64,000 nucleotides of DNA from Lachnospiraceae bacterium MD335 (GTDB lineage: Bacteria; Bacillota; Clostridia; Lachnospirales; Lachnospiraceae): positions 5,001 to 69,000 of the forward strand of contig KE159628.1 in the NCBI GenBank assembly GCA_000403335.2, given 5' to 3'. Position numbers and translations under genes: made by a program. The notes under the pieces were generated by a model that did no database searches, was not told the DNA's origin, and worked only from the letters and a program-made list of their open reading frames with translations. Positions 3,650 through 61,824 of the stretch are shown piece by piece. Within the stretch, counting starts at the first letter, position 1, and every line of letters begins with the position of its first letter.

Positions 3650-3663
3650 TGACACATGTGTCA
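3650..3663. repeat. Palindrome TGACAC-AT-GTGTCA, copy 1
   Basis: Exact 14-bp palindrome in the 43-nt gap between galM and recR, just downstream of the recR stop. One of six identical-arm copies in the window (others at 9762, 30305, 32743, 44551, 61811). No protein or enzyme recognising it is known to me. Confidence 0.85.
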
Positions 3664-3667
3664 ATCC

Positions 3668-4264
3668 TTAGAGTTCCGTTCTTCCTTCGAGTGCGCGCAG
3701 AAGCGTCATTTCGTCGATACACTCCAAGTCGCCTCCTACAGGCACTCCGCTTGCAATACGGGTGACTTTGATGCCGCTTGGTTTTATCAGCTTTGAAATG
3801 TACATCGCGGTAGTTTCACCCTCCAAGCTGGAGTTTGTTGCAATAATGACTTCTCTTACGTCGCCTTCGAGTCGTTTTATGAGTTCTTTGAGTTTGATGT
3901 CGCCGGGTCCGACACCAAGCATAGGGGAAATCGCGCCGTGCAGTACATGATACACGCCGTCGAATTTGCCTGTCCGTTCGTATGCCGCTAAATCACGTAT
4001 GTTTTCGACCACCATAATTGTGGTATGATCGCGCCCCTGATTGGCGCAAATCGGGCAGATTTGGGCATCTGTAAGCGTGTAGCAGGTATTACAGTAATGA
4101 ATATTTTTCTTTGCGTCAATCATCACTTGCGCAAAGCGCTCCACATGTTCTTCGGGCATGTTGATAATATGTAATGCCAGCCTTTGGGCAGATTTGCTTC
4201 CCACACCGGGAAGCTTGGAAAACTGCTCAATCAGTTTATTAATATATTTGCTGTAGAGTTCCAT
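3668..4264 (-). CDS. recR: Recombination mediator RecR
   Basis: DNA repair protein of the RecFOR pathway that helps load RecA at gaps. 198 residues, standard length. N-terminal helix-hairpin-helix LPGVGSKSAQRLALHI (about 18-33), a four-cysteine zinc motif CNTC...CPIC (about 58-73), then a Toprim domain with the acidic signature VVENIRDLAAYE and ending ALEGRTEL. Its ATG overlaps the ybaB stop codon (TAATG), so the two are translationally coupled. It is the last member of the dnaX-ybaB-recR operon, an order conserved in Firmicutes. Confidence 0.97.
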   Translation of the reverse strand: MELYSKYINKLIEQFSKLPGVGSKSAQRLALHIINMPEEHVERFAQVMIDAKKNIHYCNTCYTLTDAQICPICANQGRDHTTIMVVENIRDLAAYERTGKFDGVYHVLHGAISPMLGVGPGDIKLKELIKRLEGDVREVIIATNSSLEGETTAMYISKLIKPSGIKVTRIASGVPVGGDLECIDEMTLLRALEGRTEL

Positions 4265-4620
4265 TAGAAGGGCAGTCCTCCAAGTCCTCCGAGACCGCCT
4301 GCCATTTTGCCCATCAGTTCGTTGTTTGCCTCTTCTGCCTGACGAAGCGCTTCGTTTGCCGCGGCAACAATCATATCCTGTAAAGTTTCAATATCATCAG
4401 GGTCCACTGCCTCTTCTGAAAGCGTCACTTTAAGCACTTCTTTCTTACCGGAAACAACAACTTCAACAGCGCCTCCGCCTGACTTTGCACTGAATTCTTT
4501 TGTTTCAAGCTCTTTTTGTCCTTCTTCCATCTGACGCTGCATACGCTGCGCCTGTTTCATCAGATTGCCCATGTTTCCCGGCATTCCCATGCCTCCCGGA
4601 AATCCTCCTCTTTTTGCCAT
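4264..4620 (-). CDS. ybaB: YbaB/EbfC-family nucleoid-associated protein
   Basis: Small dimeric DNA-binding protein of the YbaB/EbfC family, normally encoded between dnaX and recR. 118 residues: a Gly/Met-rich N-terminus, a helical stretch (MKQAQRMQRQMEEGQKEL), a central sheet (GGGAVEVVVSGKKEVLKV) and a Gly/Leu-rich tail. A GAAAGGAG lies about 12 nt upstream of the ATG, a long spacing that also occurs before uxuB and the HAD gene in this window. It is 21 nt from dnaX and overlaps recR by 1 nt. Confidence 0.95.
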   Translation of the reverse strand: MAKRGGFPGGMGMPGNMGNLMKQAQRMQRQMEEGQKELETKEFSAKSGGGAVEVVVSGKKEVLKVTLSEEAVDPDDIETLQDMIVAAANEALRQAEEANNELMGKMAGGLGGLGGLPF

Positions 4621-4641
4621 ATTTTTAACAATGCTCCTTTC

Positions 4642-6237
4642 TTATAATTCGTCCTCGTCTTCAATTTCAATATCCATGTTGATTTCCCTGTTAATAATCT
4701 GTTCCAAATCAACATAACTGTCCTCAAATCGGCTTCCCTGTTCCATGCTTTGGATCTGAACCGAAACCTCTTTTTGTATGGCGCTTGCAATCATATTTTC
4801 CAAGTGCTTTTGGTTTTCGGCGTTACTCAGATAATCGTAAGCGACACCGTCTCCGATTACAATCATCAGGCGGTTGTCGCCTCCCAGGCTTAAACGGGCT
4901 TTTTTGAGGTGTGTTTTTAACGGCTGCTGTGCCTGCGCCACGATTGCATGCCAGTTTTTCACAATCCGGTCCACATCCTCCGGAATTGCCTTTGGAAGCG
5001 CAGGTTTTTGCGGCGCGGGTTGTCCGCCCGACTGTACCGTCTGTGTTGATTGTATCGCAAGAGGGGCTGTCTGCACAATCCCTTTTTCCATTTTTTCTTC
5101 CAAATCTTTTACACGCGCTACCACGGCGTCGTTTGTTGTCTCCATTGCAGGCTTGCACAGTTTAATCAGGGTCATTTCAATTAAGATGCGCTTTTGCGTA
5201 GCATACTTAATCTGACCGGAAAGCTCCGAAAAAATGCGGATTTGGCGCATGATTTCTTCTGCGTCCATCGCGTCCGCTTCTTCTTTCAGGCGCGCGAGAT
5301 TATCGCTGGATACGTCAACAACGTCCTCGATTTCGGTATCCGACGTTTTTACGAGCAGAAGATTGCGCAAATACCATGTGACGTCGGTGACAAACTGGGT
5401 AAGCTCGCGCCCCTGCATGACGACGCTCTCCAAAAGGGAGATACAGCCGGTAACATCATGTGCGCGGATAAAGTCCATAAGCTGCGCGAATACCCGGGTG
5501 TCTACTGCCCCCAACACGTCAAGCACTTTATCGTAGGTCAGTTCTTCGCCGAAGTGGAAAGCGATACACTGATCAAGCAGGCTGAGTGCGTCGCGCATGG
5601 AGCCGTCTGCGGTTTTTGCAATATAGCGGAGGGCTTTTTCTTCCACGTTGACCTGTTCTTTTTCCATCAGCTCGCGCAGTCTCCCTGTTATGGTTTCGAT
5701 GGTGATTCGCTTGAAATCATAGCGTTGGCAGCGTGAGAGGATGGTCACGGGAATTTTATGCACTTCGGTTGTCGCCAAAATAAAAATCACATAGGAGGGC
5801 GGCTCTTCTAAAGTTTTTAGAAGGGCGTTGAATGCACCTATCGAGAGCATATGCACCTCGTCTATAATATAGACTTTATATTTTCCTTCCACGGGTGAGT
5901 AAGATACTTCGTCAATAATTTCACGAATATTGTCAACGCCGTTGTTGGAAGCGGCGTCAATTTCGATGACGTTGACGCTTGCGCCGGACGCGATGGTCTG
6001 ACAGCTTCTGCAGGTTCCGCACGGGCTTCCGTCAACGGGGTTTTCGCAGTTTACGGATTTGGCAAAAAGTTTTGCGATGGTGGTTTTGCCGGTGCCTCTT
6101 GTGCCGGTAAAAAGGTATGCGTGACCGATTCTGTCTGCTTTGATTTGGTTGCGCAGAGTGGTTACGATATGGTCCTGCCCTTTGACGTCCTCGAAGATGT
6201 CGGGGCGGAATTTGCGGTATAGTGCGGTGTATGACAT
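4642..6237 (-). CDS. dnaX: DNA polymerase III subunits gamma/tau
   Basis: Clamp-loader ATPase of the replisome. 531 residues. Walker A GTRGTGKT (about 45-52), four-Cys zinc module (CENPVDGSPCGTCRSC, about 64-79), Walker B IIDEVHML, sensor-1 ATTEVHKIP and SRCQRYDF are all present. The C-terminal half beyond ~370 is low-complexity (Gln/Pro-rich) followed by an acidic tail EIEDEDEL. First gene of the dnaX-ybaB-recR operon, with a plausible promoter upstream at 6290-6318. No signal recognition particle RNA was found in the 142-nt gap upstream. Confidence 0.97.
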   Translation of the reverse strand: MSYTALYRKFRPDIFEDVKGQDHIVTTLRNQIKADRIGHAYLFTGTRGTGKTTIAKLFAKSVNCENPVDGSPCGTCRSCQTIASGASVNVIEIDAASNNGVDNIREIIDEVSYSPVEGKYKVYIIDEVHMLSIGAFNALLKTLEEPPSYVIFILATTEVHKIPVTILSRCQRYDFKRITIETITGRLRELMEKEQVNVEEKALRYIAKTADGSMRDALSLLDQCIAFHFGEELTYDKVLDVLGAVDTRVFAQLMDFIRAHDVTGCISLLESVVMQGRELTQFVTDVTWYLRNLLLVKTSDTEIEDVVDVSSDNLARLKEEADAMDAEEIMRQIRIFSELSGQIKYATQKRILIEMTLIKLCKPAMETTNDAVVARVKDLEEKMEKGIVQTAPLAIQSTQTVQSGGQPAPQKPALPKAIPEDVDRIVKNWHAIVAQAQQPLKTHLKKARLSLGGDNRLMIVIGDGVAYDYLSNAENQKHLENMIASAIQKEVSVQIQSMEQGSRFEDSYVDLEQIINREINMDIEIEDEDEL

Positions 6238-6289
6238 TTTGTACCTCCAGTCTGCGGTGTTTTTGATGTGTTTAGGACAATTAAAATAT

Positions 6290-6318
6290 AGTATAACATA
6301 ATTGAGGGAACTTTTCCA
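6290..6318 (-). promoter_or_regulatory. Candidate sigma-A promoter of dnaX operon
   Basis: On the minus strand TGGAAA (-35), a 17-nt spacer and TATACT (-10) lie about 53 nt before the dnaX start codon. The -10 matches five of six consensus bases and the spacing is ideal. Confidence 0.5.
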
Positions 6319-6379
6319 CTTACGCTTTTATTTGCTGCAAAAAGGCAAAAAAAGTATTGATTATAATTCGTCAGTCTTC

Positions 6380-7423
6380 TTACACATTATTATGTTCTGC
6401 TGTCAGAATATTTACCACAAACGCCGTCCCCATTCCCAAATCGCTGTCTGCTTCGATTGTGCCGCCGTGTGCTTCGATGATTGTTTTGGCAAGTGGGAGT
6501 CCGAGCCCGATGCCTTGGGTTTCTTTGGAAAAGCGGCTGCGGTAGAAGCGTTTGAAAATATGATATTGGTCCTCCGGGTGAATACCGCTTCCGTTGTCTT
6601 TGACAGTAATTTGGAGGACGGTCGGGAGGCGGTTCCATTGGATTTGAACGCTGTCGCCAGCTTTGGTGTGGTCGAGGGCATTTTTTACGAGGTTGTCAAT
6701 GGCTTCCAAAAGCCAGCTTCGGTCGCATAGCAGTGTTGTATTTTCATCGCCTGATAAGAGGATTTCTTTTTTCTCCTGTGAGGCACGGAAAGAAAAATGT
6801 GCCTGCACGGCTTCCATTAATTCGGATACATTTTCCTGCTGTTTGTTCATTACAATGGCGCCTGCGTCGAATTTGGCGATTTTTAAGAGGCTTTGCACGA
6901 GTGCTTCCACTCTGTCCAGCTCCTGTTCGCTTCGCATGGCGAAGTCACGGACTGTCGGGTGGTTTTCGGCTTCTTCCTGTATAATGCCGTTATAGATATT
7001 GAGCGCGGCAAGAGGGGTTTTTAGTTGATGGGAAATGTCCGATATAGTGTTTTGCAAAAAAGTCTTGGATTTTGCTTCGTTTTCTGCATGTGCGCCCAAT
7101 ATAGAGGCGAGGGAGTTGATTTCGTGGAACAGCCGGTATAGCGCGCCTTCTTCGTTGCAGGCAATGCGGGCGTTCCGGTTTCCTGAAATGTAGTCTGCTA
7201 TCTGCGCGGCGGCAGATTCAAACAATTTGTCCTGTTTTATGAAATAATGGCAGCACACTGTAAGAACTACGGCTGCCATAATGAGGGCGTTTATCAGAAT
7301 GCAGACTGCGGCGTGTTCTTTTGCAATGCTCAAAATGGTTATCGACACGAACAAGAACATCAGTACGCACAGCAAGATCGTTTTAAAGAGGGTTTTTATG
7401 TCTTTGTTTGTCAATATTTTCAT
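6380..7423 (-). CDS. Sensor histidine kinase, short-loop membrane type
   Basis: Partner kinase of the response regulator immediately upstream. 347 residues from the chosen start. Two transmembrane segments close together near residues 12-32 and 36-58 leave almost no extracellular loop, as in intramembrane-sensing kinases. A HAMP-like linker follows, then the H-box ISDISHQLKTPLAAL (phospho-His), N-box AIDNLVKNALDH, G1 DNGSGIHPED and G2 GIGLGLPLAK. The start at 7423 has GAGGAAATAGAA before it; an earlier in-frame ATG at 7468 would overlap the regulator and lacks a good site. No BceAB-type transporter is adjacent. Confidence 0.92.
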   Translation of the reverse strand: MKILTNKDIKTLFKTILLCVLMFLFVSITILSIAKEHAAVCILINALIMAAVVLTVCCHYFIKQDKLFESAAAQIADYISGNRNARIACNEEGALYRLFHEINSLASILGAHAENEAKSKTFLQNTISDISHQLKTPLAALNIYNGIIQEEAENHPTVRDFAMRSEQELDRVEALVQSLLKIAKFDAGAIVMNKQQENVSELMEAVQAHFSFRASQEKKEILLSGDENTTLLCDRSWLLEAIDNLVKNALDHTKAGDSVQIQWNRLPTVLQITVKDNGSGIHPEDQYHIFKRFYRSRFSKETQGIGLGLPLAKTIIEAHGGTIEADSDLGMGTAFVVNILTAEHNNV

Positions 7424-7449
7424 TTCTATTTCCTCAATCTCCTTAATCT

Positions 7450-8136
7450 TTAATCTGATACATTCCATTTGTAGCCCATGCGCCGGACGGTGATAATCCG
7501 TTTGGGGGCACTTGGTTCGTCCTCTATTTTAGTTCGCAGTCTGCGAATATATACGGTGAGTGTGTTGTTGTCCACAAAATTGCCGCTGCTGTCCCACAGT
7601 CTGCCTAAAATCTGCTCGGAAGACAGAACGACGCCGGGATTTTCCATAAAAAGGCATAAGAGCTTGTATTCGCCTGCCGTCAGGTCAATCTCTGTGTCGT
7701 TTTTGTATACTTTTCCTTTTAAACGCTCTACCCGTATCCCGCCGGAAATAAGCTGTGTGTCTGCTTCGCAAAAATTACTGCTTCGGCGCAGCAGGGCGTT
7801 GATACGCGACATTAGTACGGCAAGTTTGAAGGGTTTTGTGATGTAGTCGTCACCGCCGATGTCAAGTCCCATGATAATGTCGGTTTCCTCGTCTGCGGCG
7901 GTCAAAAAAATAATCGGGACGTTTGAGACCCGGCGTATTTTTTTACAGATGTCATAGCCGGAACCGTCAGGAAGGGAGACGTCCAGGATTACCATGTCGA
8001 AGCGTTTGTTTGTCCATACGACGCCGGCTTCCGCGGCGGTGCGGATGACAGTTATTTCGTAGCCTTGTTTCTGGATTGCGAAAGATAACCCGTTGATTAG
8101 GCTTAGGTCGTCTTCGATTAGCAGAATGTGTTTCAT
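7450..8136 (-). CDS. OmpR/PhoB-family response regulator
   Basis: Transcription regulator phosphorylated by the downstream kinase. 228 residues: receiver domain 1-115 with acidic pair IEDD, phospho-acceptor Asp in MVILDVSLPDGSG, conserved Thr in FLTAADEE and Lys in ITKPF; winged-helix DNA-binding domain about 130-225 (TAGEYKLLCLF, NTLTVYIRRLRTKIE, MGYKW). The kinase start lies 26 nt beyond its stop. The target genes are not apparent from the surroundings. Confidence 0.95.
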   Translation of the reverse strand: MKHILLIEDDLSLINGLSFAIQKQGYEITVIRTAAEAGVVWTNKRFDMVILDVSLPDGSGYDICKKIRRVSNVPIIFLTAADEETDIIMGLDIGGDDYITKPFKLAVLMSRINALLRRSSNFCEADTQLISGGIRVERLKGKVYKNDTEIDLTAGEYKLLCLFMENPGVVLSSEQILGRLWDSSGNFVDNNTLTVYIRRLRTKIEDEPSAPKRIITVRRMGYKWNVSD

Positions 8137-8238
8137 TTGTCATTGCCCTTTCTTAGAATTATTTATTTCAACTATATACGCAAAACAGGTTGATTACAAG
8201 TGTTGCGGCAAAACAGGTTTTATATCCTATATAGGTTT

Positions 8239-8285
8239 AAAACCGGCGTTACTCCGCTCACGTATCGGAGGGAGACGCCGGTTTT
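8239..8285 (-). terminator. Strong nested hairpin downstream of the Rpn gene
   Basis: Outer arms AAAACCGGCGT / ACGCCGGTTTT with a nested CTCCG / CGGAG stem. It lies 18 nt past the Rpn-gene stop. On the minus strand the arm ends in TTTT, which fits a terminator; it may also be a REP-like hairpin. Confidence 0.55.
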
Positions 8286-9685: not shown

Positions 9686-10138
9686 AAATGCAACGGCAAG
9701 GGAAGCTTTAAAGGCAAAATTAAGATTAACTTTACCATTCATCCACAGGATTTATCAAAAATGACACTCGTGTCATGTGACAGGATATATACCGGAAAGG
9801 CGGGCGCTCCCGTGGCGGACGCGGATATTCTCCCCGCAGATACGCAGATTCGCATTACGCTAAAGCATGGCAGCGGGAACGGTTATACGGGAACCTTTCA
9901 GGGAACATTCCGCATTGTAAAAGCCGACATCAAATCCGCAAAAGTCGAAATCCCGGCACAGACTTATACGGGCGATACGATTACTCCTAATAAAAAACAG
10001 ATTAAGGTAACGCTTGCCGGCAAGAAGCTGCGCGACGAAGACTACGATATTGTCCTTTGCACGGATAATGTGAAGAAGGGCAAAGCAACGATTACTTTGA
10101 AAGGAAAAGGGAATTATGGCGGCACGAAAACGGCGTAA
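9686..10138 (+). pseudogene. Remnant of a repetitive surface protein
   Basis: The open frame runs from just after an in-frame stop (TAA at 9683) to 10138. Its translation has the repeat chemistry of large Lachnospiraceae cell-surface proteins: GKGSFKGKIKINFTIHP, YTGKAGAPVADADILPADT, then a second unit YTGDTITPNKKQIKVT...KGKATITLKGKGNYGGT. It lacks a signal peptide, a ribosome binding site and any anchor, so it looks like an internal or C-terminal fragment of a once longer gene. The ATG at 9761 is part of a TGACAC-N2-GTGTCA palindrome and probably not a real start. Confidence 0.6.
9762..9775. repeat. Palindrome TGACAC-TC-GTGTCA, copy 2
   Basis: Exact copy of the dispersed 14-bp palindrome, here inside the surface-protein remnant and extended by one more pair (A...T) on the outside. 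Confidence 0.85.
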
Positions 10139-29594: not shown

Positions 29595-30353
29595 TTACCC
29601 TTCTAATTGATACATGATCCATGCCATAACTGTCATGCCTGCGGTCTCGGTACGCAGAATGCGTTTTCCAAGTGTAACGGGCTTCATGCCAAGTGAAATC
29701 GCCGCGTCAATTTCGTCCTCCTCGAAGCCGCCCTCGGGACCGATAAAAACGGCAATGCGCTGTCCGGCGTGCAGGCCTTCCATAATCTTTTTCGTACCTG
29801 CCATTCCAGACGCGCCGTCCAGTATATTTTCCATTTCGTATGGTACAATTTTTACGTCCATATCTTTGGCATATTCCAATGCCTGGCGGTAGGTCATCAC
29901 ATTTTGAACCTGCGGAATAACGGCGCGCTTGCTCTGCTTTGCGGCGGCCTCTGCAATTCCCTGCCATCTTGCGGTCTTTGATTTTGCTTTTTTTTCGTCA
30001 AGCTTCACCACACAGCGTTTCATGGCGACGGGAATGATTTCGTAAACGCCCAGCTCTACCATCTTTTGAATGATCAGTTCCATTTTGTCGCCTTTGGGAA
30101 GTCCTTGGAACAGGTACACCTTTGCGGGCAGCTCCACGCCGTCCTCCTTGATAAAACGCAGTCTGCATACAACCTGTGTTTCCGTGATTTCCTCTATCCC
30201 ACAGCGATAGTCTTTGCCATCCTCTCCGTTGCTGACGCTGATTTCATCGCCGATTTTCAGGCGGATTACGTTTTTAATATGATTGACATCATCGCCTGTA
30301 ATTATGACACTTGTGTCATAAATTTGGCTCGAATTTACAAAAAAATGGTACAT
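29595..30353 (-). CDS. rsmE: 16S rRNA (uracil-1498-N3)-methyltransferase
   Basis: SPOUT-class methyltransferase acting on U1498 of the 30S subunit. 252 residues from the ATG at 30353 (MYHFFVNSSQIYD). N-terminal PUA-like domain (DDVNHIKNVIRLKIGDEISV) and SPOUT domain with IIQKMVELGVYEIIPV, KAKSKTARWQGIAEAAAKQS, the SAM-binding knot FIGPEGGFEEDEID and LGKRILRTETAG. Downstream partner of prmA and dnaJ as in other Firmicutes, here separated by two inserted genes (NUDIX, GNAT). A dispersed palindrome copy lies in codons 12-17. Confidence 0.96.
   Translation of the reverse strand: MYHFFVNSSQIYDTSVIITGDDVNHIKNVIRLKIGDEISVSNGEDGKDYRCGIEEITETQVVCRLRFIKEDGVELPAKVYLFQGLPKGDKMELIIQKMVELGVYEIIPVAMKRCVVKLDEKKAKSKTARWQGIAEAAAKQSKRAVIPQVQNVMTYRQALEYAKDMDVKIVPYEMENILDGASGMAGTKKIMEGLHAGQRIAVFIGPEGGFEEDEIDAAISLGMKPVTLGKRILRTETAGMTVMAWIMYQLEG
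30305..30318. repeat. Palindrome TGACAC-TT-GTGTCA, copy 3
   Basis: Exact copy of the dispersed palindrome inside the rsmE coding sequence, where it encodes the residues YDTSV. The arms extend by one further complementary pair (A...T). Confidence 0.85.
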
Positions 30354-32509: not shown

Positions 32510-33682
32510 CTATTTAAAAAAACCTTTGCGTTTCTTTTCCTTTTTCTCTTTTTCGTCATTCGGCTCGCTGTTTTCCATATTTTTCACGGCTTCCAAACTG
32601 TTCCCCGTCTCACTGTCAAACTTGCGCAAAAGCTCCTTTGCCTCGTTCGAAAGCTTCTCCGGTACCTGTACGACAAGCGTCACATAATGGTCGCCGCGCA
32701 CATCTTTGTTGCGGAGCGACGGAACACCCTTTCCGCGCAATCTGACACGCGTGTCAGTTTGTGTGCCCGCTTTCACGTCGTACACAACCTTGCCGTCCAC
32801 CGTATCAATCAGCACCTCTCCGCCAAGCGCCGCCACCGCAAAGGAAACCGGAACAGTAGAGAATATGTTCATATCCTGCCGCTGGAAAATCGGATGCCTG
32901 TCAACCACAACCTCTACCAGCAAATCGCCGCGCGGTCCGCCGTTGACGCCCGGCTCGCCCTTATCCCTGATACGCACGCTCTGCCCGTTATCAATACCTG
33001 CCGGAATGGATACCTGTATTTTTTTCCTTCCGGAAATATATCCGCTTCCGCCGCAGTCGGGGCATTTATCTTTTATAGTCTTTCCAGTACCGCCGCAGTC
33101 AGGACACGTCTGCGAATTCTGAATGGTGCCAAACGGTGTCTGACGCCTTGTCACCACCTGACCGCGCCCGCCGCATCGGTGGCACGTCTCCGGTGAAGTT
33201 CCGGGTTTTGCACCGCTTCCGTTACAGGTCTTACACGTATCCTTGAGATTTAAGTCAAGCTCTTTTTCTACGCCAAACACAGCCTCCGAAAATGTGATTC
33301 GGACACTGGTGCGCAGATTTGCGCCTCTCATTGGTCCATTGCTTGAACGGCGGCTGCCGCCACCGAAAAAGTCGCCAAAAATATCTCCAAATATGTCAGA
33401 AAAATCGGCGCCGCCAAAGTCAAAGCCACCAAAGCCGCCGGCGCCGCCGCCTTCAAACGCAGCATGACCAAACTGGTCATACTGGCGTCTCTTTTCAGGA
33501 TCACTCAGCACCGCATATGCCTCTGATGCCTCCTTAAATTTCTTTTCGGCCTCAGCGTCACCCGGATTCATATCGGGATGATATTTCTTGGCAAGCTGTC
33601 TGTATGCTTTTTTTATTGAGGCATCGTCGGCGCCGCGCTCGACGCCTAATACCTCATAGTAATCTCTTTTTTGTTCTGCCAT
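32510..33682 (-). CDS. dnaJ: Chaperone DnaJ
   Basis: Hsp40 co-chaperone that stimulates DnaK ATPase and binds unfolded chains. 390 residues: J domain 5-70 with HPD (YHPDMNPGD), Gly/Phe-rich linker ([14 protein letters not shown]), four zinc repeats [24 protein letters not shown] and CPDCGGSG (about 148-215), two C-terminal substrate domains and a Lys/Glu-rich tail. Located 126 nt after dnaK, a gap with two hairpins (33724-33748 and 33756-33803). A dispersed palindrome copy lies within it at 32743. Confidence 0.98.
32743..32756. repeat. Palindrome TGACAC-GC-GTGTCA, copy 4
   Basis: Exact copy inside dnaJ, encoding TDTRV on the minus strand. The whole 14-mer is self-complementary here because the spacer GC is too. 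Confidence 0.85.
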
Positions 33683-40348: not shown

Positions 40349-41530
40349 TTACTTCATATTTAAAAGCTTTTCAAGCGTGGGACTGACATTCAGAAACGTC
40401 TCAAGCTCCGCAATCTGCGCCGTTTTCGCCCTTCCTCTCATATGTCCCTTTTTCACCGCCCTGATTAACAGGTTTTTCGGTGTGTTTTCCATATCTATAA
40501 ATTCCAAAAGCTGCGTGTCATAGCCCTGCTCTTCCAAAAGGTTTGCGCGGATGGCATCCGTCATAAGCGCCGCCATCCGTTCCTTTATAATGCCATACTT
40601 TAACACGGGGGCAAGCGCGGGACATTTGAGCTGCCTGTTCAGCTCGTGCTGACAGCACGGAACGGAGAGTATTACCTTCGCATTCCACTTTACCGCCTTC
40701 GCAAGTGCGTAATCCGTCGCGGTATCGCATGCATGGAGCGTCACCACCATGTCAACCTGCGTGGCACCTTCATACGTACCAATATCTCCTACAAGAAATT
40801 TTAACCCGTCATATCCAAATTTATCCGCAAGCGCCTGACACGTCTCGATCACATCCTTTTTTAAGTCCAGTCCAGTGACACAAATGTCATAATTATTCAT
40901 CACTTTAAGATAATAATATAACGCAAAGGTTAGATACGACTTACCGCACCCGAAATCAATAATCTGAAGCGGTCTGCCTTCCTCGTTCGAAAGATTAGGC
41001 ATTATATCGCGCACAAATTCAAGGTATCTGTTAATCTGACGGAATTTATCATATTTTGCATTTATGATTTTCCCTTCAGGCGTCTGCACGCCAAGCTCCA
41101 CCAAAAACGGGACAGGAATATCTTGCGGAAGAATATAGTTTTTTTCTTTATTGTGGGAAAAATCGCAGTAATTTGTCTGAGGAGCGTTATCATTTTGTGC
41201 TGCGGCTGCCTTTTCTTTGATTGTCAATTTCCCTTTTTTGCTTATCAGGACCGTAAGGCTGTGCCTGTCCGTTTTTGCCTCAAGCTGCTTAAAATCCTGC
41301 TCCATCGCACATGCCAAAAAGTTCGCCAGGTCATTTTGTTCGATGGTTTTGTGGAATACTTTTGTGCCGACGAAGCTCTCCGCCTGATATACAAGAACTT
41401 CCTTTTTGCGTACAGGGCGGACTTTCAGTTTCTGTATCTTTTCCCTGTCACGCGGGTTGCTTGCGGTTACGGTCAAAATTGTTTCATTTTTATTTATATA
41501 ATTGTTGATGATTTTTCTTAAATTTTCCAT
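40349..41530 (-). CDS. SAM-dependent methyltransferase (Methyltransf_32 type)
   Basis: 393 residues. N-terminal ~140 residues unassigned, Lys-rich. C-terminal methyltransferase domain with LQIIDFGCGKSYLTFALYYY (SAM loop, about 190-209), TGLDLKKDVIETC, DMVVTLHACDTATDYALAKA and SVPCCQHELNRQL. The HACDTATD and CCQHE motifs are typical of a family of putative tRNA/rRNA methyltransferases; the target is unknown. The ATG at 41530 has no ribosome binding site. Instead TGCTATAAT ends 7 nt upstream, so the message is probably leaderless. Confidence 0.88.
   Translation of the reverse strand: MENLRKIINNYINKNETILTVTASNPRDREKIQKLKVRPVRKKEVLVYQAESFVGTKVFHKTIEQNDLANFLACAMEQDFKQLEAKTDRHSLTVLISKKGKLTIKEKAAAAQNDNAPQTNYCDFSHNKEKNYILPQDIPVPFLVELGVQTPEGKIINAKYDKFRQINRYLEFVRDIMPNLSNEEGRPLQIIDFGCGKSYLTFALYYYLKVMNNYDICVTGLDLKKDVIETCQALADKFGYDGLKFLVGDIGTYEGATQVDMVVTLHACDTATDYALAKAVKWNAKVILSVPCCQHELNRQLKCPALAPVLKYGIIKERMAALMTDAIRANLLEEQGYDTQLLEFIDMENTPKNLLIRAVKKGHMRGRAKTAQIAELETFLNVSPTLEKLLNMK
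40876..40889. repeat. One-mismatch variant of the TGACAC-N2-GTGTCA palindrome
   Basis: TGACACAAATGTCA inside the methyltransferase gene differs from the palindrome at one base. A second such variant is at 47199-47212 (TGACACACCTGTCA). Either may be chance or a decayed copy. Confidence 0.35.
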
Positions 41531-44197: not shown

Positions 44198-46162
44198 TAT
44201 CTCCGCTCCTGGAGGCATCGGCTTTTCCGCCGTCATCAGCGCAAGATTTCCTTCCGCGTCCTCCGCACACAAAAGCATTCCCTCCGACAGCACGCCCGCC
44301 AGCTTTGCCGGCTTCAAATTCACAAGCACCATCACCTTTTTACCCACCATTTCCTCCGGCGTGTAATAAGCCTTAATGCCTGACACAATCTGTTTTACCT
44401 GCGAACCGATTTTTACCTGGCTGCAAAGCAGCTTTTTCGACTTCGGCACCGCCTCGCACGCGATAATCTCGCCCATCTGAAACTGCATTTTTGCAAAGTC
44501 GTCATACGTGATTTCTGCCTTCGGCTCTATATCAATTACCGCATCATTTATGACACTCGTGTCATTTTCCTGCGCCGCATTCTGCCGCTCGGCAATCTCC
44601 TGTGCCTTTGCCGCAATCTCTTTAGCATCCAAACGCGCAAATAAAATCTCCGGTGCATCCGTTACCTTTGTCCCCGACGTATAGACGCCAAATGTTTTTG
44701 TTGAATCAAAATCGCGGATTTCACTGTTTAACTGCTTCATAATTCTCGCGGCAGTTTCCGGCATAAACGGCTCAAGCAGCCCCGCGCCGATGGAAATGCC
44801 CTCCACAAGATTATACAGCACCGTGGCAAGCCTGTCCTTCTTTGCCTCATCCTTTGCCAGTACCCACGGCTCCGTCTCGTCAATATATTTGTTGCAGCGC
44901 TTAAACAGATTGAAAATCTCCGTCAGCGCATCCGCAACGCGCAGGCTGTCCATTTTTGCTTCTACCTTATCATACGTGCCTGTCGCAACCGCCTTTAAAT
45001 CCTCGTCGACTGCCTCCGCAGCGCCCTTGTCCGAAACCACGCCGCCAAAATATTTATTGCTCATGGAAATCGTCCTGTTGACAAGGTTTCCGAGCGTATT
45101 TGCAAGATCGGAATTTAACCGCTCCACCATCAAATCCCATGTGATGGACCCGTCGTTTTCAAACGGCATCTCATGCAGTACGAAATAGCGCACCGCGTCC
45201 ACGCCGAACACCTCGGCGAGGTCGTCGGCATACATAATATTTCCCTTTGACTTACTCATCTTGTCATTATTCTGCAAAAGCCAGGGATGTCCGAAAATCT
45301 GATGCGGCAGCTCCTCGCCGAGCGCCATCAGGAAAATCGGCCAGTAAATCGTATGAAAACGAATAATATCCTTTCCTATTAAGTGCAGGTCGGCGGGCCA
45401 AAGCTTTCCGAACTGCTCCGAACTGTTTCCGTCTGCATCATAACCGATACCCGTGATATAATTCGTTAACGCGTCAAGCCACACATAGACCACATGCCTG
45501 TCATCAAAGTCAACCGGAATACCCCACTTGAACGACGTACGCGACACACACAAATCCTGAAGTCCCGGAAGAAGAAAATTGTTCATCATCTCATTTTTTC
45601 TCGATACAGGCTGAATGAACTCAGGGTGTTTATTGATATGGTCAATCAGTCGGTCGGCATACTTACTCATCTTAAAAAAATATGCTTCTTCTTTCGCAGG
45701 CTTTACCTCGCGCCCACAGTCGGGACACTTGCCGTCCTTCAACTGCGACTCCGTCCAAAAAGACTCGCAGGGTGTACAATAAAGCCCCTCATATGCGCCT
45801 TTGTAAATATCGCCTTGGTCGTAAAGGCGTTTGAAAATCTTCTGTACCTGTTTCTCGTGAAAATCGTCCGTAGTGCGGATAAATTTATCATACGAAATGT
45901 TGAGCATATCGCAAAGCCCTTTGATAACCCCTGCCACATTGTCGACAAACTCTTTTGGCGTCACGCCTGCTTCCGCCGCCTTCAACTCAATTTTCTGTCC
46001 GTGCTCGTCCGTACCCGTTTGGAAAAAAACGTCGCAGCCGTCCTTTCTTTTATACCGCGCAATGCTGTCCGCAAGCACGATTTCATAATTATTTCCGATA
46101 TGCGGTTTGCCCGATGTGTAGGCAATCGCTGTTGTGATATAATATTTGCCCTTATTCTGCAT
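44192..46162 (-). CDS. metG: Methionyl-tRNA synthetase
   Basis: Charges tRNA-Met. 656 residues. HIGH-type motif TSGKPHIGNNYEI, zinc module CTPCESFW...CPDCGRE (about 127-148), KMSKSKGN, anticodon-binding helical domain, and a C-terminal EMAP/tRNA-binding OB domain (MQFQMGEIIACEAVPKSKKL, LVNLKPAKLAGVLSEGML). No T-box or S-box leader was seen upstream. A dispersed palindrome copy is in the linker before the OB domain. Confidence 0.98.
   Translation of the reverse strand: MQNKGKYYITTAIAYTSGKPHIGNNYEIVLADSIARYKRKDGCDVFFQTGTDEHGQKIELKAAEAGVTPKEFVDNVAGVIKGLCDMLNISYDKFIRTTDDFHEKQVQKIFKRLYDQGDIYKGAYEGLYCTPCESFWTESQLKDGKCPDCGREVKPAKEEAYFFKMSKYADRLIDHINKHPEFIQPVSRKNEMMNNFLLPGLQDLCVSRTSFKWGIPVDFDDRHVVYVWLDALTNYITGIGYDADGNSSEQFGKLWPADLHLIGKDIIRFHTIYWPIFLMALGEELPHQIFGHPWLLQNNDKMSKSKGNIMYADDLAEVFGVDAVRYFVLHEMPFENDGSITWDLMVERLNSDLANTLGNLVNRTISMSNKYFGGVVSDKGAAEAVDEDLKAVATGTYDKVEAKMDSLRVADALTEIFNLFKRCNKYIDETEPWVLAKDEAKKDRLATVLYNLVEGISIGAGLLEPFMPETAARIMKQLNSEIRDFDSTKTFGVYTSGTKVTDAPEILFARLDAKEIAAKAQEIAERQNAAQENDTSVINDAVIDIEPKAEITYDDFAKMQFQMGEIIACEAVPKSKKLLCSQVKIGSQVKQIVSGIKAYYTPEEMVGKKVMVLVNLKPAKLAGVLSEGMLLCAEDAEGNLALMTAEKPMPPGAEIQ
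44551..44564. repeat. Palindrome TGACAC-TC-GTGTCA, copy 5
   Basis: Exact copy in the metG linker, encoding NDTSV on the minus strand, with one more complementary pair (A...T) outside the arms. Confidence 0.85.
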
Positions 46163-46377: not shown

Positions 46378-47385
46378 ATGAAAAAATTAATCCTGTCCCT
46401 TTTTACTCTGATGTTTATCCTTGTATGCGTACCGGCAGTTCACGCCGATGCAGCCGAAGATAATGCCGTATGGACCAACGCCGGAAATATGACGTGGACC
46501 CTTCAGCGCGACGACGGCACCAATATCACCGTAAAACTAATCGGAAATGTGCTCCATGTACAGGGAACCGGCGCTGTCCCCTCTTATTCACCGGAAGCTT
46601 TGGGGCTCAGACCGTGGCATGTCGCAAACATTTCTGTCTATGAAATCCTTGTCTATGACGGAATTACCGAAATCGGCTCAAGGGCATTTTCCGACATGAC
46701 ATTCCTCAAAAAAGTAACCTTGAATGCAAATGTGTTTATAAAGGACGGCACTGCGTTTGCAGGTGCAGCGGAAGGATGCCGTTTTCATTTTCTTGGCACG
46801 AACATGGCAACCGAACTGATCGGCGGCAAAATCCCCTACACCTCGCTTGACAGCATCGTACATTTTGGACTCGCCAATAACAACGGCTGGTACACCTACA
46901 TCTTTGCCAACCATTATATGAAACGTATGGTAGACCTAAAATCGGGAGGAAAGCTTTTCAACGTGGTCGCATCCGATGATTACGATACCACCGCAAACGC
47001 AAACTATCCGTATATTGACATCACCACAAAAGTAAAAAAGGTTTCCGGCGACCTCCATTATCTCACATCCATCACCACCCAAAGCAATATTCAGGGAAGA
47101 AGCGCACTTGAAGCCTTTGCGATTATGATGGGTGATAACCAGTACGTGGGCGCCTACAACGTGTCCCTTAATTTAAACGATAAGATTGTCAAAAAAACTG
47201 ACACACCTGTCACTTATTCGTTGGAAATTCCAAACGCATATAAATTTCCAAACCGTCATTTTTCCCTAATACAGTTCGGCGAGGGCGTCATCAACGTACT
47301 TACGGACGAGGATGCGGATGACAACACCATGACATTTACCACAAGCTATCCTTCTACCGTATATGCATTAGTTTATCACGATTAA
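46378..47385 (+). CDS. Secreted protein with BspA-type leucine-rich repeat
   Basis: 335 residues. Signal peptide 1-23 (cleavage near VHADA). Residues about 30-145 resemble a BspA-like LRR_5 module (NAGNMTWTLQRDDGTNITVK, VYEILVYDGITEIGSRAFSD, FLKKVTLNANVFI). The C-terminal ~190 residues are sheet-rich and unassigned. No anchor is visible, so it is probably released. AAAGGAGA precedes the ATG and a consensus promoter is upstream. Unrelated in sequence to the FIST gene that follows, from which it is separated by its own promoter. Confidence 0.75.
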   Translation: MKKLILSLFTLMFILVCVPAVHADAAEDNAVWTNAGNMTWTLQRDDGTNITVKLIGNVLHVQGTGAVPSYSPEALGLRPWHVANISVYEILVYDGITEIGSRAFSDMTFLKKVTLNANVFIKDGTAFAGAAEGCRFHFLGTNMATELIGGKIPYTSLDSIVHFGLANNNGWYTYIFANHYMKRMVDLKSGGKLFNVVASDDYDTTANANYPYIDITTKVKKVSGDLHYLTSITTQSNIQGRSALEAFAIMMGDNQYVGAYNVSLNLNDKIVKKTDTPVTYSLEIPNAYKFPNRHFSLIQFGEGVINVLTDEDADDNTMTFTTSYPSTVYALVYHD

Positions 47386-57226: not shown

Positions 57227-57247
57227 CCGCTTGTTTTGTGCTATACT
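57219..57247 (+). promoter_or_regulatory. Promoter of the Crp/Fnr-type gene
   Basis: TTGTCC, 17 nt, TATACT with an upstream TG (extended -10); 95 nt before the start codon. Confidence 0.65.
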
Positions 57248-57342
57248 AAAAAAGACAAGTGCCAGCGCACTTATCCAGCAAAAATCCTGCAATTTCCGAT
57301 ATCATAAAAAGAACCCATTTTGAAAGGAGCATCCTAATCCCT

Positions 57343-58002: not shown

Positions 58003-58017
58003 CGTCAAATTTCCCTT

Positions 58018-59472
58018 TTACTGGCGGATATCCACATATCCGACCTCCAAAGAATGGTCGCACAAATTATAACTGTCTCCATAACTGTCCAAATTCAGAT
58101 ACAGATACGCCAATTCTTCCTCCGGCACAAGCCACGCCATATGAACCGTCGCCGTCTCCCCTGCTTTCAAATGCGTGATATAATTGTTATTCCGCTCGCC
58201 GCCATGCACATCATAATACCACATCTCCACATGCCGCGCGGCTCCTGTCAGTACCGCGTCGTCCCAATCCGCACTTGGTCCAAATGTCTTACCGTCATAT
58301 CGTTTTATCTGACCGTTTTCTTCCGCAAATTTCATAAGACTCCCAAAGAACAACAGTTCTTCCAACTCCTCCGTCCCCTTATTTGTGTATTCCACCGTAG
58401 CATAAATCAGTTTTTGCGGAACTTCGCGGCTTTCCACAACCGTATCAACGGAATTAACGCCGTCCCCGAATTTCATATAATTGATTTTTGCCGGAAGCAG
58501 TTCGCCTGACGGTGTTGTTTCACTCTGCAATTCCGCCTTAAAATCCTCATCTAACGCAGACAAGTCAAGCAGGCTGATATTATCACTCACCTGTACGTCT
58601 GACACCTTAATTTCCACGTTTCCCAAGCCCTCCAAATCCTCTTTTTGGGGATTTGCCGCAAATACGTCTCCGATTGCGTGTGTGTTTTTCATTTCCTCTC
58701 CTGATACAGCAGGCGCTGCATCTTCAACCACTTCTTCATGATTGGACGCAAGAAAATCACTCCACTTATAAGCCGCAATGGCATCGGATAACGCATTGTC
58801 TGAAACAGGCTGCAAACGAATGCCCTCTGCAATTTTTATAGCCTCCTCCTTCGATACATCGGATGCCGCATACAATTCCATCACATAATGCACATCAGGA
58901 TATGCCACATAAATACGCTGATTAAAGGATATGTCCTCGCCCCCGATTGACTGCAAGGCAAAATAAACGCCTTCATGCCCCCCAACACTGATGTTTTCCG
59001 ACTCTTTCACGTTTTTCGTCAACATTTCAAACGCCGCATCACCAGTATCCATTTTGTAAAATACAATTGAAACACCGCCTTTGTACATGGCATTTGCAAA
59101 ACTGTATTTTCCGTCTTCCGTTTTTACCATTCCGTCCGGCAGGTACGAAACCTCCATTGTAACATCAGGAATGTTTGGTATCTGCCCGTTTTCCAAACTG
59201 TTGTTCCCATCTTTTTCTATCTTTGTTTTCACCGCATACTTTCCAACCGATTCACTGCGCATGTGATACGCAATCGCTGCAAATACGGTTGTTCCAAGCA
59301 GCATTGCAGCTGCAAATGCAACAATCAAGGACCTTTTTATTGTATGTTTTGTATATTTTCTTCTGTTCCCCGTCACGCTCTCCCTGAGTTGTCTGCGTAC
59401 CTCATGCTCAACCATGTTCCGCAATTCATCCGGCATTTGGGGAAATTCCTGCTTTAAATCTTCCAATCTCAT
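58018..59472 (-). CDS. Anti-sigma factor-like membrane protein
   Basis: 484 residues. Short cytoplasmic N-terminal part (1-48) with MRLEDLKQEFPQMPDELRNM, a transmembrane segment at about 49-70 and a large extracellular portion. Residues ~100-220 resemble a DUF4367 domain (DVTMEVSYLPDGMVKTEDGK, YVAYPDVHYVMELYAASDVS); the last ~200 are an Ig-like sheet region (KLIYATVEYTNKGTEELEEL). Placed 5 nt after an ECF sigma gene, so it is the likely anti-sigma factor. It converges on the Crp gene. Confidence 0.82.
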   Translation of the reverse strand: MRLEDLKQEFPQMPDELRNMVEHEVRRQLRESVTGNRRKYTKHTIKRSLIVAFAAAMLLGTTVFAAIAYHMRSESVGKYAVKTKIEKDGNNSLENGQIPNIPDVTMEVSYLPDGMVKTEDGKYSFANAMYKGGVSIVFYKMDTGDAAFEMLTKNVKESENISVGGHEGVYFALQSIGGEDISFNQRIYVAYPDVHYVMELYAASDVSKEEAIKIAEGIRLQPVSDNALSDAIAAYKWSDFLASNHEEVVEDAAPAVSGEEMKNTHAIGDVFAANPQKEDLEGLGNVEIKVSDVQVSDNISLLDLSALDEDFKAELQSETTPSGELLPAKINYMKFGDGVNSVDTVVESREVPQKLIYATVEYTNKGTEELEELLFFGSLMKFAEENGQIKRYDGKTFGPSADWDDAVLTGAARHVEMWYYDVHGGERNNNYITHLKAGETATVHMAWLVPEEELAYLYLNLDSYGDSYNLCDHSLEVGYVDIRQ

Positions 59473-59477
59473 ACTTC

Positions 59478-59969
59478 CTAAACCTCCATTTCCGTTTCCA
59501 GTTCCTCTTTCAGCCTCGCCCTTGCCCGCATCAGGCGGTTTTTCACCGCGCTCTCTGTCGTTTTCATCAAAGCTGCAATCTCCTTAATGCGGTAACCTTC
59601 CATATAATAAAGGGTAACGGTCAGCCTCGTCTCCTCTGAAAGGCGGCTCATTGCTTCATACAAATCGGAATAATCACCCTCTTCTATTACCTTTTGCTGC
59701 AAGGAAATGCCCTCCGCAGAAGCGTCCTCCAGCGAAATCAGCCTCTTTTCTCGCCGCATGACAGCATAGCATTCATTGATGACAATGCGCACTAACCACG
59801 TTTTCCCATATGAATCCTTGCGCAGCATATGCAGCCCCGAAAACGCCTTTACGATTGCCTCCTGAATTGCGTCCGCACAATCCGCATCATTTCGCAGCAG
59901 CGTTTTTGCCACGCGGTACATCATATCCTCCGACGCAATAATTAAATTTCCCAATTGTTCCTTCGTCAT
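59478..59969 (-). CDS. ECF-type RNA polymerase sigma factor
   Basis: 163 residues. Region 2 (about 10-70: AKTLLRNDADCADAIQEAIV, TWLVRIVINECY) and region 4 (about 105-155: LSEETRLTVTLYYMEGYRIK, EIAALMKTTESAVKNRLMRA) without region 3. Controls an extracytoplasmic response together with the downstream membrane protein. AGAAAGGAT precedes the ATG. I did not find a clear copy of its own promoter. Confidence 0.94.
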   Translation of the reverse strand: MTKEQLGNLIIASEDMMYRVAKTLLRNDADCADAIQEAIVKAFSGLHMLRKDSYGKTWLVRIVINECYAVMRREKRLISLEDASAEGISLQQKVIEEGDYSDLYEAMSRLSEETRLTVTLYYMEGYRIKEIAALMKTTESAVKNRLMRARARLKEELETEMEV

Positions 59970-60104
59970 AATATCCTTTCTGCCGGCTTTTGTTTTGTAA
60001 TATTGTGCACTGATTTTTTCTTACATCTGTTAGATGTATTATAAATACATTTGGTCGCATTCGAAACAGACAAAATTTCTATATATTTTTAGTCTGCACA
60101 AAAC

Positions 60105-60133
60105 TTGCCCGCAAATCATAAATATTGTACAAT
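60105..60133 (+). promoter_or_regulatory. Promoter of second OmpR-type two-component operon
   Basis: TTGCCC, 17 nt, TACAAT; 46 nt before the response-regulator ATG. Confidence 0.65.
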
Positions 60134-60178
60134 TATTTTTATCAAAATTATTCAAAACGACATGGGAGGTCTCCTAAA

Positions 60179-60859
60179 ATGAAACAGCTCCTTATCATCG
60201 TAGAAGACGACAAAAGCCTAAATCAGGGATTATGCAAGGCGTTAGCCGACCAAAACCGTCAAGTCATTTCCTGCCAAAATATCCGCTCCGCACGTGAGCA
60301 GCTTGCACTTGGCGGCGCGGCGCTTGTGCTGCTTGACATCAATCTTCCCGACGGAAACGGGCTTGACTTTTTACAGGAAATCAAAGCCGCATCACCCAGC
60401 CTTCCCGTCATTATGCTGACGGCAAACGATACTGACATGGACATTGTAGAGGGCTTGGAAAAGGGCGCGGATGACTACATTACAAAGCCGTTCTCCCTCT
60501 CCGTGCTGCGCGCACGCGTCAATGCAAGACTGCGCCAAACTACAGACAACGCAGCAGAGCAGCTCCATGAAAACGGTAAGTTTTGCTTTGACTTCGACCA
60601 TATGCATTTCACCGTAAACGGCAATGCAGTGGAGCTGAGCAAAACGGAACAAAAACTCCTGCGTCTTTTCGTTGAAAATCAGGGAAACACCCTAAGCCGC
60701 AGCTTTCTCGTGGACCGTATTTGGACCGACGGTGCAGAGTATGTCGATGAAAACGCCCTTTCCGTCACTGTAAAGCGGCTGCGCGACAAGCTGGACGCGC
60801 AGGAGCATATAAAGACCATATACGGAATCGGATATAAGTTTGAATGGCTCGTGAAATAA
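60179..60859 (+). CDS. OmpR/PhoB-family response regulator
   Basis: 226 residues. Receiver 1-115 (IIVEDD, VLLDINLPDGNGLDF, MLTANDTDMD, YITKPFS) and winged helix 130-224 (VELSKTEQKLLRLFVENQGN, ENALSVTVKRLRDKLD, YGIGYKFEW). GGGAGG precedes the ATG at 60179; the frame is open to 60125 without a site. Paired with the kinase 28 nt downstream. Confidence 0.95.
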   Translation: MKQLLIIVEDDKSLNQGLCKALADQNRQVISCQNIRSAREQLALGGAALVLLDINLPDGNGLDFLQEIKAASPSLPVIMLTANDTDMDIVEGLEKGADDYITKPFSLSVLRARVNARLRQTTDNAAEQLHENGKFCFDFDHMHFTVNGNAVELSKTEQKLLRLFVENQGNTLSRSFLVDRIWTDGAEYVDENALSVTVKRLRDKLDAQEHIKTIYGIGYKFEWLVK

Positions 60860-60886
60860 CCTATTGGCAGACGAGGAGAACCCCAA

Positions 60887-61813
60887 ATGATACTACGAAT
60901 TGACAATAACATGATATGGCTTATCAGTGCGGCGTGTATGCTCACGGCGGCGCTTGTCATTTTCTATAATTACCACCGTACCAAAAAAACGATGAACACC
61001 ATTGAACAGATGCTTGAATGCGCCGACGACGTGCGCTTTTTAGAAAAAAAATTTGACGAAAGCCGTATGTCCGCGCTTGAGACAAAATTTGCACACTTTC
61101 TGACCGCCTCCGCCGTTTCCGCCAAAAACGTCGCAGCGGAAAAAGAGAAAATTGAAACGCTGATTTCCGACATCTCCCACCAGACAAAAACGCCGATTGC
61201 AAACCTGCTGCTCTACAGCGAACTGCTGCAGGAGGCAGACCTGCAAGGCGATGTGCGCGGCAACGCGGAGGCAATCTATGCGCAGACCGAAAAACTCCGC
61301 TTTTTAATCGACTCCCTTGTCAAGCTCTCGCGCTTAGAAAACGGCATTATCACGCTCTCCCCCAAGCCAACGCCGCTGCTGCCCATGCTCCGGTCTATTC
61401 ACAGCCAGCTTGCGCCGAAAGCGGCAGACAAAGGGCTTTATCTGCAACTGAATGACACGGAAACTACCGCAGAACTTTCCGCCGTATGCGATGCAAAATG
61501 GACAGCCGAGGCAGTCTGCAATCTCATAGACAATGCCATTAAGTATACCGCGCAAGGGGGTATCACGATTTCCATTACCGCATACGAGCTGTTTGCACGC
61601 ATTGATATTGCGGACACTGGTATCGGCATCGCAGAGGAGGAGCACGCCAAAATCTTCTCCCGCTTTTACCGCTCACAGAACGCGCAGGATAAGGAAGGCG
61701 TCGGTATCGGTCTGTATCTTGCGCGGGAAATCGTAAACGGTGAGGGCGGGTATATTAAAGTGACCTCCTCCATAGGAAACGGCGCTGTTTTTTCCGTCTT
61801 TCTTCCAAAATGA
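60887..61813 (+). CDS. Sensor histidine kinase
   Basis: 308 residues, one transmembrane segment (about 9-29) and no extracellular domain. H-box SDISHQTKTPIANLLLYSEL (phospho-His), N-box VCNLIDNAIKYTAQGG, G1 DIADTGIGIAEEE, F-box SRFYRSQ, G2 GVGIGLYLAREI. Likely works with a membrane partner encoded elsewhere. GAGGAG precedes the ATG. Its TGA stop is part of a dispersed palindrome copy. Confidence 0.94.
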   Translation: MILRIDNNMIWLISAACMLTAALVIFYNYHRTKKTMNTIEQMLECADDVRFLEKKFDESRMSALETKFAHFLTASAVSAKNVAAEKEKIETLISDISHQTKTPIANLLLYSELLQEADLQGDVRGNAEAIYAQTEKLRFLIDSLVKLSRLENGIITLSPKPTPLLPMLRSIHSQLAPKAADKGLYLQLNDTETTAELSAVCDAKWTAEAVCNLIDNAIKYTAQGGITISITAYELFARIDIADTGIGIAEEEHAKIFSRFYRSQNAQDKEGVGIGLYLAREIVNGEGGYIKVTSSIGNGAVFSVFLPK

Positions 61814-61824
61814 CACAAGTGTCA
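61811..61824. repeat. Palindrome TGACAC-AA-GTGTCA, copy 6
   Basis: Exact copy; its first three bases are the stop codon of the histidine kinase gene. Confidence 0.85.

Follow-up and report, generated by a model that had tools for sequence, protein, structure and literature searches.

A dispersed palindrome in a Lachnospiraceae genome as a predicted binding site of a TetR-family protein

Introduction

Why does one 14-bp palindrome, TGACAC-N2-GTGTCA, occur six times in a single 64,000-nucleotide stretch of the Lachnospiraceae bacterium MD335 genome, and what might read it? The stretch (hereafter the window) covers positions 5,001 to 69,000 of contig KE159628.1, in our numbering G000:C12:5001-69000, where G000 is the MD335 genome itself (4,962,672 bases) and other G, C and L handles are those of genomes, contigs and loci. 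Systems of dispersed chromosomal sites, such as those of Noc, SlmA and MatP, have been described in a handful of model bacteria. Here we argue, with a probability that we put at roughly seven in ten, that the palindromes are binding sites, as predicted by sequence comparison, of a dimer of a TetR-family protein encoded elsewhere in the same genome, and we infer that this protein binds them in vivo.

Results

A sequence-only reading of the window had reported the six exact copies, their differing spacers and their contexts (the galM-recR gap, rsmE, dnaJ, metG and a stop codon), and all of these are borne out. No copy arose in 100 dinucleotide shuffles, base composition predicts 0.0037 copies in the window (0.004 by the earlier estimate, which had likewise placed the repeats beyond chance), and 0 of 179 permutations of the arms occur there at the same spacing. 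Under the broader definition TGACA-N4-TGTCA, justified below, the window holds eight copies, the extra two at 40876 and 47199:

3650..3663, exact site TGACACATGTGTCA, between galM and recR, 26 bp 5' of the galM start
9762..9775, exact site TGACACTCGTGTCA, where a 125-aa open reading frame (ORF) without a Pfam match begins; called a gene remnant in the earlier reading
30305..30318, exact site TGACACTTGTGTCA, in rsmE; minus-strand codons TAT GAC ACA AGT GTC ATA
32743..32756, exact site TGACACGCGTGTCA, in dnaJ; codons ACT GAC ACG CGT GTC AGA
40876..40889, broad-motif copy TGACACAAATGTCA, in a Methyltransf_32 gene; its left flank is not A/T-rich, making it a weaker copy
44551..44564, exact site TGACACTCGTGTCA, in metG, between the anticodon-binding and the C-terminal tRNA-binding domains
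47199..47212, broad-motif copy TGACACACCTGTCA, in a 335-aa ORF without a Pfam match
61811..61824, exact site TGACACAAGTGTCA, across the TGA codon that ends a histidine-kinase ORF (60887-61813)

The excess holds for the genome as a whole, which contains 84 exact copies and 0 of a reversed control. Of 43 copies with one mismatch found in 868 kb, 39 differ solely at the inner C/G, and the true motif is therefore TGACA-N4-TGTCA. The palindrome first described is thus real, with the qualification that its fixed part has arms of five bases rather than six, within flanks that are A/T-rich at positions -2 to -6 (as seen with 78 of the 84 exact sites fetched). Written with these flanks as WWNTGACANNNNTGTCANWW, the broad motif occurs 160 times in the genome (reversed control, 1). 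A central pyrimidine-purine step is found in 0 of the 78 exact sites and in 11 of 51 non-exact broad copies.

Abundance of the motif is confined to few lineages. Every one of 37 genus-mates carries it, with 8-165 broad copies each (controls, 0-2), and exact copies are present in 36 of the 37. Outside the genus, 74 of 78 genomes hold 0-3 broad copies, the exceptions being G045 with 4 (control, 2), G043 with 6, and G059 and G068 with 20 each; in a sample of 249 genomes from the phylum, the top count after MD335 is 4. Named contigs that share sites with MD335 are metagenome-assembled genomes of Lachnospiraceae. The 20 sites of G068, a member of a distant genus, form clusters, with six inside 19 kb of one contig, and their inner base is frequently G rather than C. 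A literature search found the exact motif string in no paper and the broad string solely in plant papers, and returned nothing on Lachnospiraceae nucleoid palindromes or on a PanR-TetR pantothenate regulon.

The candidate binder is the product of one TetR-family gene:

G000:C1:827574-828155, TetR-family protein of 194 aa, recognition segment ISRGGLYLYF

It is one of 17 TetR_N genes in the genome, two of which, by reading, have a helix of SRGG type: the chosen gene (L285) and L296 (LSRGGLYCHY), a weak match (E 1.2e-14) in the ortholog search. With Pfam PF00440 (TetR_N) it scores 67.6 bits, against a gathering score of 24, which places it in the TetR family, and its predicted structure is an ordinary all-helical TetR fold over the full length. 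Bacillus subtilis YfiR (PDB 1rkt) is both the nearest solved structure by sequence (E 3.4e-17) and the top Foldseek match, though at 25% identity. The candidate's three best matches in the 78 genomes from outside the genus come from G059, G068 and G043, which are also the three richest in sites; the ortholog cut (E<1e-39) was set post hoc, and the ranking is independent of it. Next comes G052 (E 2e-34), where two sites stand in tandem at the TetR gene itself. Within the genus, full-length orthologs are present in 30 of 38 genomes.

An association of TetR genes and palindrome is also seen outside the family. A scan of 84,980 species' genomes for WWWATGACACNNGTGTCATWWW yielded at least 107 stretches, 80 of them listed. 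Among these listed matches, 20 of 28 loci outside the Lachnospiraceae have a TetR ORF no more than 300 bp from the palindrome, as compared to 13% of random positions, and 0 of 52 loci within the family do; the TetR profile used was built from 11 seeds, some of them copied from loci that it then scanned. Nine of the 20 TetR-adjacent loci listed have the helix SRGG(I/L)YLYF, and twelve belong to Enterococcus, Vagococcus, Leuconostoc, Ornithinibacillus, Clostridium Marseille-P3244, Izimaplasma and Sporosalibacterium. G089 and G095 (L444 and L443) have two tandem sites and one site, respectively, at their own TetR genes; like G052, they hold 2-3 A/T-flanked copies per genome. The earlier belief that the sequence had no known parallel is not supported, since outside the Lachnospiraceae it adjoins TetR genes, singly or in tandem, in the manner of an operator. 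At some loci the neighbours (10 proteins tested) include pantothenate or coenzyme A (CoA) genes (DFP, flavoprotein, type III pantothenate kinase, PanB) or a component of an ECF transporter. The TetR relatives in G095 and G089 stand beside CoA-synthesis genes, which suggests that the ancestor may have been a pantothenate/CoA regulator.

Further observations on gene and motif come from the TetR loci of the genus. Residues 28-48 of the protein are 92% identical within it (26 of 30 genus sequences), and the rest of the protein 54%. This would fit a specificity locked by many sites, to which it lends weak support by itself because the helix-turn-helix (HTH) segment is usually the better-conserved part of a TetR. 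The 150 bp before the TetR start hold no site at any of 30 genus loci, and at one (G001) a site lies within 250 bp upstream of the start of the preceding gene. Eight of the 30 TetR ORFs contain a site, seven at offset 353 (G032, G018, G009, G028, G025, G016 and G019, members of different sub-clades) and one at offset 490 (G001). The resulting density is 0.46/kb, against 0.055/kb in the rest of those loci, although the Fisher p of 0.0005 overstates the difference, the seven copies at offset 353 having a common origin. An internal site of this kind connects gene and motif, and may point to intragenic autoregulation. In an exploratory comparison, the four genomes whose recognition segment has H (LYLHF for LYLYF; G015, G021, G036 and G037, at L424, L431, L434 and L425) showed low site densities of 7.6-14.2 per Mb.

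The palindromes are conserved as DNA. At the dnaJ site the peptide is identical in 20 of 20 relatives, with the codons of the window in 8 and synonymous ones in 12. The rsmE site retains both five-base arms in 8 of 15 relatives (one with N in the centre), has one mismatch in 2 and is absent from 5; in the intact copies the centre reads CGCG, CAAA, CACG, GAAG, GGAC or AGAG, with the residue T replaced by R or K. In neither gene are there indels at the site among orthologs, the differences being substitutions, and flanks vary from copy to copy. For a broader comparison, 23 sites of G011 were taken in contig order with none dropped, a fairer sample than the stretches based on MD335. In MD335, 15 are exact, 3 differ in the inner base while both five-base arms stay intact, and 2 carry a single mismatch in an arm; the other three comprise one misaligned site and two that do not align over the site. 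In the 20 aligned sites (that is, without the misaligned L088 and the two unaligned loci), the arms are identical at 198 of 200 positions and the central NN at 30 of 40; outside the sites, columns 7-25 are identical at 531 of 760 positions and sequence beyond 60 bp at 82%. In named Lachnospiraceae loci the site is conserved in 19 of 19 that align over it (19 of 52 loci), a figure that overstates conservation since the MD335 stretches were mostly picked around exact sites. Copies are thus kept across species; neither this comparison nor the genome-wide count refuted the sequence-only reading, which had named both as tests. The arms are kept even where the centre and the encoded residues change. 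Two of the three reading frames are used, giving 42 DTxV and 28 (M/V/L)TxVS peptides; the third would put TGA in frame. Since the sites constrain codons of housekeeping genes, they matter when conservation in those genes is read.

Most copies are intragenic. Of the 129 broad copies in 1.21 Mb, 118 lie inside ORFs, the share to be expected where ORFs of 110 aa or more cover about 88% of the sequence (ORFs were called mechanically, so that coverage may double-count overlaps), and the positions of copies along ORFs have a nearly flat profile. On four contigs the exact sites are clustered, with 17 gaps below 5 kb (7.4 expected), and repeated closely within some genes, with 4 gaps below 150 bp (0.23 expected). 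Density differs among contigs (chi-square p=0.004). It is highest, at 27.3/Mb, on the origin contig, which carries dnaA (C12:529949, by reading), and is 13.7/Mb on the contig with the GC-skew terminus (C13). No motif copy was found in a 101-kb near-origin stretch, C12:408.7-509.8 kb, parts of which read as N. By reading, the ORFs of that stretch include many recombinases and other mobile-looking genes.

In the genus the TetR gene follows a gene of about 153 aa (the partner; L446:10070-10531) with a helical product. The partner is present in 36 of 38 genus genomes and in G059, G068 and G041, the last of which has 0 sites and no such TetR beside the partner; it was not found in G043, where the TetR contig ends about 220 bp upstream. 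Profile search assigned the partner protein to no known family (DUF6508 only, at E 0.02), the PDB held no convincing sequence match (best E 0.87) and no fold match had E <0.001. In G002, G003 and G007 the partner has no TetR gene beside it. In G014 (L463) and G017 (L462) the partner is followed solely by C-terminal TetR remnants, suggesting recent losses with sites still numerous. The two ends of the TetR gene sit on two contig ends in G020, and both genes are missing from G005 and G008, which are 76% and 66% complete. On the partner-gene tree, the distribution of losses needs at least three changes on well-supported branches. The TetR gene has thus been lost repeatedly, and sites afterwards became fewer in some lineages, not all: density per Mb is 4.9 in G007, which has lost the gene, versus 24.8 in its sister G033, and 12.7 in G003, which has also lost it, versus 19.0 in G012.

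Discussion

Co-occurrence of the TetR gene and the sites is strong between genera and, inside the genus, supportive but noisy. Several points count against the TetR as binder of these sites. G014 and G017, which retain only remnants of the gene, still have 19.8 and 17.5 sites per Mb. G002, which has lost it, has 8.9 per Mb against 7.6-14.2 in its neighbours, and is no poorer than G015, G021 and G037. The medians of five genomes without the gene and 30 with a full-length copy (12.7 vs 21.2; G005, G008 and G020 left out) differ modestly, with a one-sided p=0.045 uncorrected for kinship. The rsmE site is intact in G003 and G007 and absent from several relatives that have the TetR; the dnaJ site is broken in G003 and G007, likewise in TetR-bearing G032, G033 and G034. 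Finally, the TetR of G010 is full-length and its helix unchanged, yet this genome holds only 8 sites.

We propose that the two HTH domains of the TetR dimer would read one TGACA arm apiece, with the four central bases nearly free and the A/T flanks assisting. Relatives elsewhere would act as local regulators through one or two palindromes at their own gene. In the genus, sites would have arisen by substitution, to judge from the two genes compared closely, and would then have been kept by selection, turning a local TetR into a chromosome-wide binder at up to about 160 mostly intragenic places. What such a protein does is a further matter. That the sites are mostly intragenic, conserved and clustered hints at a role at the level of the chromosome (nucleoid organisation, or a link to division or segregation) instead of gene-by-gene regulation, for which SlmA and RefZ are precedents among TetR proteins; as the main task of the TetR this is our guess, and its chances fall somewhat short of even. 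Two observations weigh against it. Of the 11 non-ORF copies, 10 have a start codon no more than 60 bp downstream (all 10 at 17-49 bp), which holds for 28% of random non-ORF positions (n=3000; p 2.5e-5), and in the whole set 10 of 129 copies are near a start, against 4.2 expected (p 0.01). Because non-ORF copies favour start codons in this way, a chromosome-level role becomes less likely and a regulatory one likelier. Moreover, the terminus (placed by GC skew to within about 100 kb) is not depleted, with 8 exact sites in 400 kb against 6.8 expected, which argues against a copy of the timing logic of Noc or SlmA. Intergenic DNA as a whole is not favoured and near-start positions are, mildly. This favours at least some regulatory use, and both roles may hold.

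These results bear on two earlier suggestions. That the copies share no promoter setting stands for the intragenic majority and fails for the non-ORF copies near starts. A nucleoid-type function was soundly guessed, given sites that are dispersed, over-represented, conserved as DNA and mostly intragenic, except that the sequence does have a parallel. Methylation or uptake sequences, also raised at the time, are unnecessary and in our judgement would fit poorly because of the number of copies (about 160), the core of two five-base arms with A/T flanks and the single co-occurring TetR gene.

How do the palindromes compare with known systems? PMC4726725 describes SlmA as a TetR-family protein with 24-52 dispersed SlmA-binding sites (SBSs), Noc as having about 70 dispersed Noc-binding sites (NBSs), which are 14-bp palindromes, and both kinds of site as under-represented at the terminus. 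Our case resembles SlmA of Escherichia coli, a nucleoid-occlusion protein whose antagonism of FtsZ is activated by DNA, in its TetR-family dimer and dispersed palindromes, with sites several times more numerous and a terminus that is not depleted; it resembles Noc of B. subtilis in its dispersed 14-bp palindromes, although Noc belongs to the ParB family and the candidate here is a TetR. One ParB was seen by reading, at C12:510934-511824, and no Noc-like neighbour among the ORFs read in C12:412.9-530 kb; a genome-wide search for ParB domains was not part of the analysis. RefZ of Bacillus sporulation, as PMC6657595 presents it, is another TetR-family protein with near-palindromic chromosomal sites (RBMs), of which only five are conserved. 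The candidate scores 16.5 bits with the SlmA model (NCBIfam PRK09480; equivalog cut-off 120; residues 6-76 only) and 25.5 bits with the RefZ model (NF037937; cut-off 180; residues 9-77 only), and so by these models belongs to neither. The sites of MatP (matS) are confined to the terminus, whereas ours are densest on the origin contig. RacA sites are dense near the origin and elsewhere, according to PMC6593407. The WhiA site is asymmetric with a core of GACAC / GAYACRCY; a WhiA-type site was rejected here, the motif being a symmetric palindrome in which the inner C is the least conserved base of the arm. RacA is a MerR-type protein whose ram palindrome, which we take to be TGACGCCGGCGTCA, is likewise a 14-bp inverted repeat with TGAC...GTCA ends, though with another core sequence; a literature search for that string found nothing. 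HIP1 of cyanobacteria, too, is an iterated palindrome within coding DNA, but has far more copies and is linked to methyltransferases, not to a TetR. Close parallels, too, are the single-locus TetRs of Enterococcus, Leuconostoc, Ornithinibacillus, Clostridium Marseille-P3244, G052, G089 and G095, which combine SRGG(I/L)YLYF with the same palindrome; they differ in that no more than one or two sites stand at each TetR locus, and at several of these loci the neighbours are pantothenate/CoA or ECF-transporter genes.

Among the alternatives, the same TetR might be a global transcription regulator, with near-start copies serving as operators and intragenic ones either acting as road-blocks or being silent by-products. 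Regulation of transcription is the usual task of TetR proteins, RutR of E. coli (also a TetR) reportedly binds within genes, and the non-ORF copies gather near starts. Yet copies fall in ORFs as coverage predicts, with a nearly flat profile, and the recognised genes (dnaJ, metG, rsmE, mnmE and others) have, by reading, no evident common function. The placement tests (ORF share and near-start copies) lead us to give less weight to promoter operators as the main use in the genus, and we consider this explanation unlikely, if still a serious contender. We are equally doubtful of a system of nucleoid occlusion or division placement resembling that of Noc, SlmA or RefZ, which would be one form of the chromosome-level role: the TetR membership of SlmA and RefZ, the similar copy number, length and dispersal, and the density peak on the origin contig speak for it, whereas the undepleted terminus and model matches limited to the HTH and far under the cut-offs do not.

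Improbable, in our view, is that another protein (ParB/Noc-like, MerR/RacA-like or WhiA) binds the sites and that the correlation with the TetR is coincidental. Only TetR genes were enumerated genome-wide, which counts against our preferred binder and leaves room for other classes, and the ram palindrome and the GACAC core of WhiA resemble the arms. A regular-expression hunt for other HTH genes in 1.21 Mb yielded little. However, the ORFs read in C12:412.9-530 kb include no Noc-like gene beside parAB, the WhiA site lacks symmetry, the three best TetR matches of the 78 genomes are the three site-richest, and the motif adjoins TetR genes of the same type elsewhere among the matches listed. The lineage-specific abundance and the close repeats in some genes might be due to a palindromic element, selfish or inserted, that was copied into genes. 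Since dnaJ and rsmE orthologs align without insertion, differ at the sites by substitution and have varying flanks, we rejected an element of REP or RPE type on these two genes and hold the explanation to be very improbable. An RNA hairpin acting in mRNA is scarcely credible. The arms could pair (UGACA-N4-UGUCA), but coding-strand mismatches are symmetric without wobble bias (13 vs 12), on which ground it was rejected; the arm-adjacent bases show no pairing covariation (ATGACAC..GTGTCAT in 27 of 78, about 26 expected), and the arms keep their sequence, not merely their pairing.

If the predicted binding by the TetR is correct, a wider account can be tentatively offered, at odds short of even. 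During the radiation of one Lachnospiraceae group, a vitamin-type, single-locus TetR would have become a chromosome-wide architectural protein: the operator 5' of its own gene would have gone, the same word would have come to occupy 100-200 mostly intragenic positions, and the partner of about 153 aa would have become a fixed neighbour. Such a system would have arisen separately from those of Noc, SlmA, RefZ and MatP, and living genomes would show relatives with a single operator, relatives with few sites (G043, G059 and G068) and losses alike. A protein that still sensed a small molecule would tie chromosome organisation or division to the metabolic state of the cell. One genus offers genomes with tens to over a hundred sites, a candidate binder, relatives of it that have one or two operators, and several lineages in which sites outlast the binder; both the change of a local regulator into a chromosome-wide binder and the decay of sites after its loss become open to test.

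The palindrome also occurs in settings of other kinds. In Pseudoalteromonas (L320, L335 and L338) it lies between a glutamate synthase-like gene and a gene for a membrane-fusion-type adaptor, with no TetR ORF within 300 bp. At least 120 phage stretches (L156-L275, viral contigs) contain tandem TGACAN4TGTCA arrays whose copies are spaced by 5-35 bp; within 600 bp of them, among the matches listed, a TetR ORF was found in 0 of 120 and a crudely recognised Xre-type ORF in 1 of 120, and these arrays are perhaps operators of another phage repressor.

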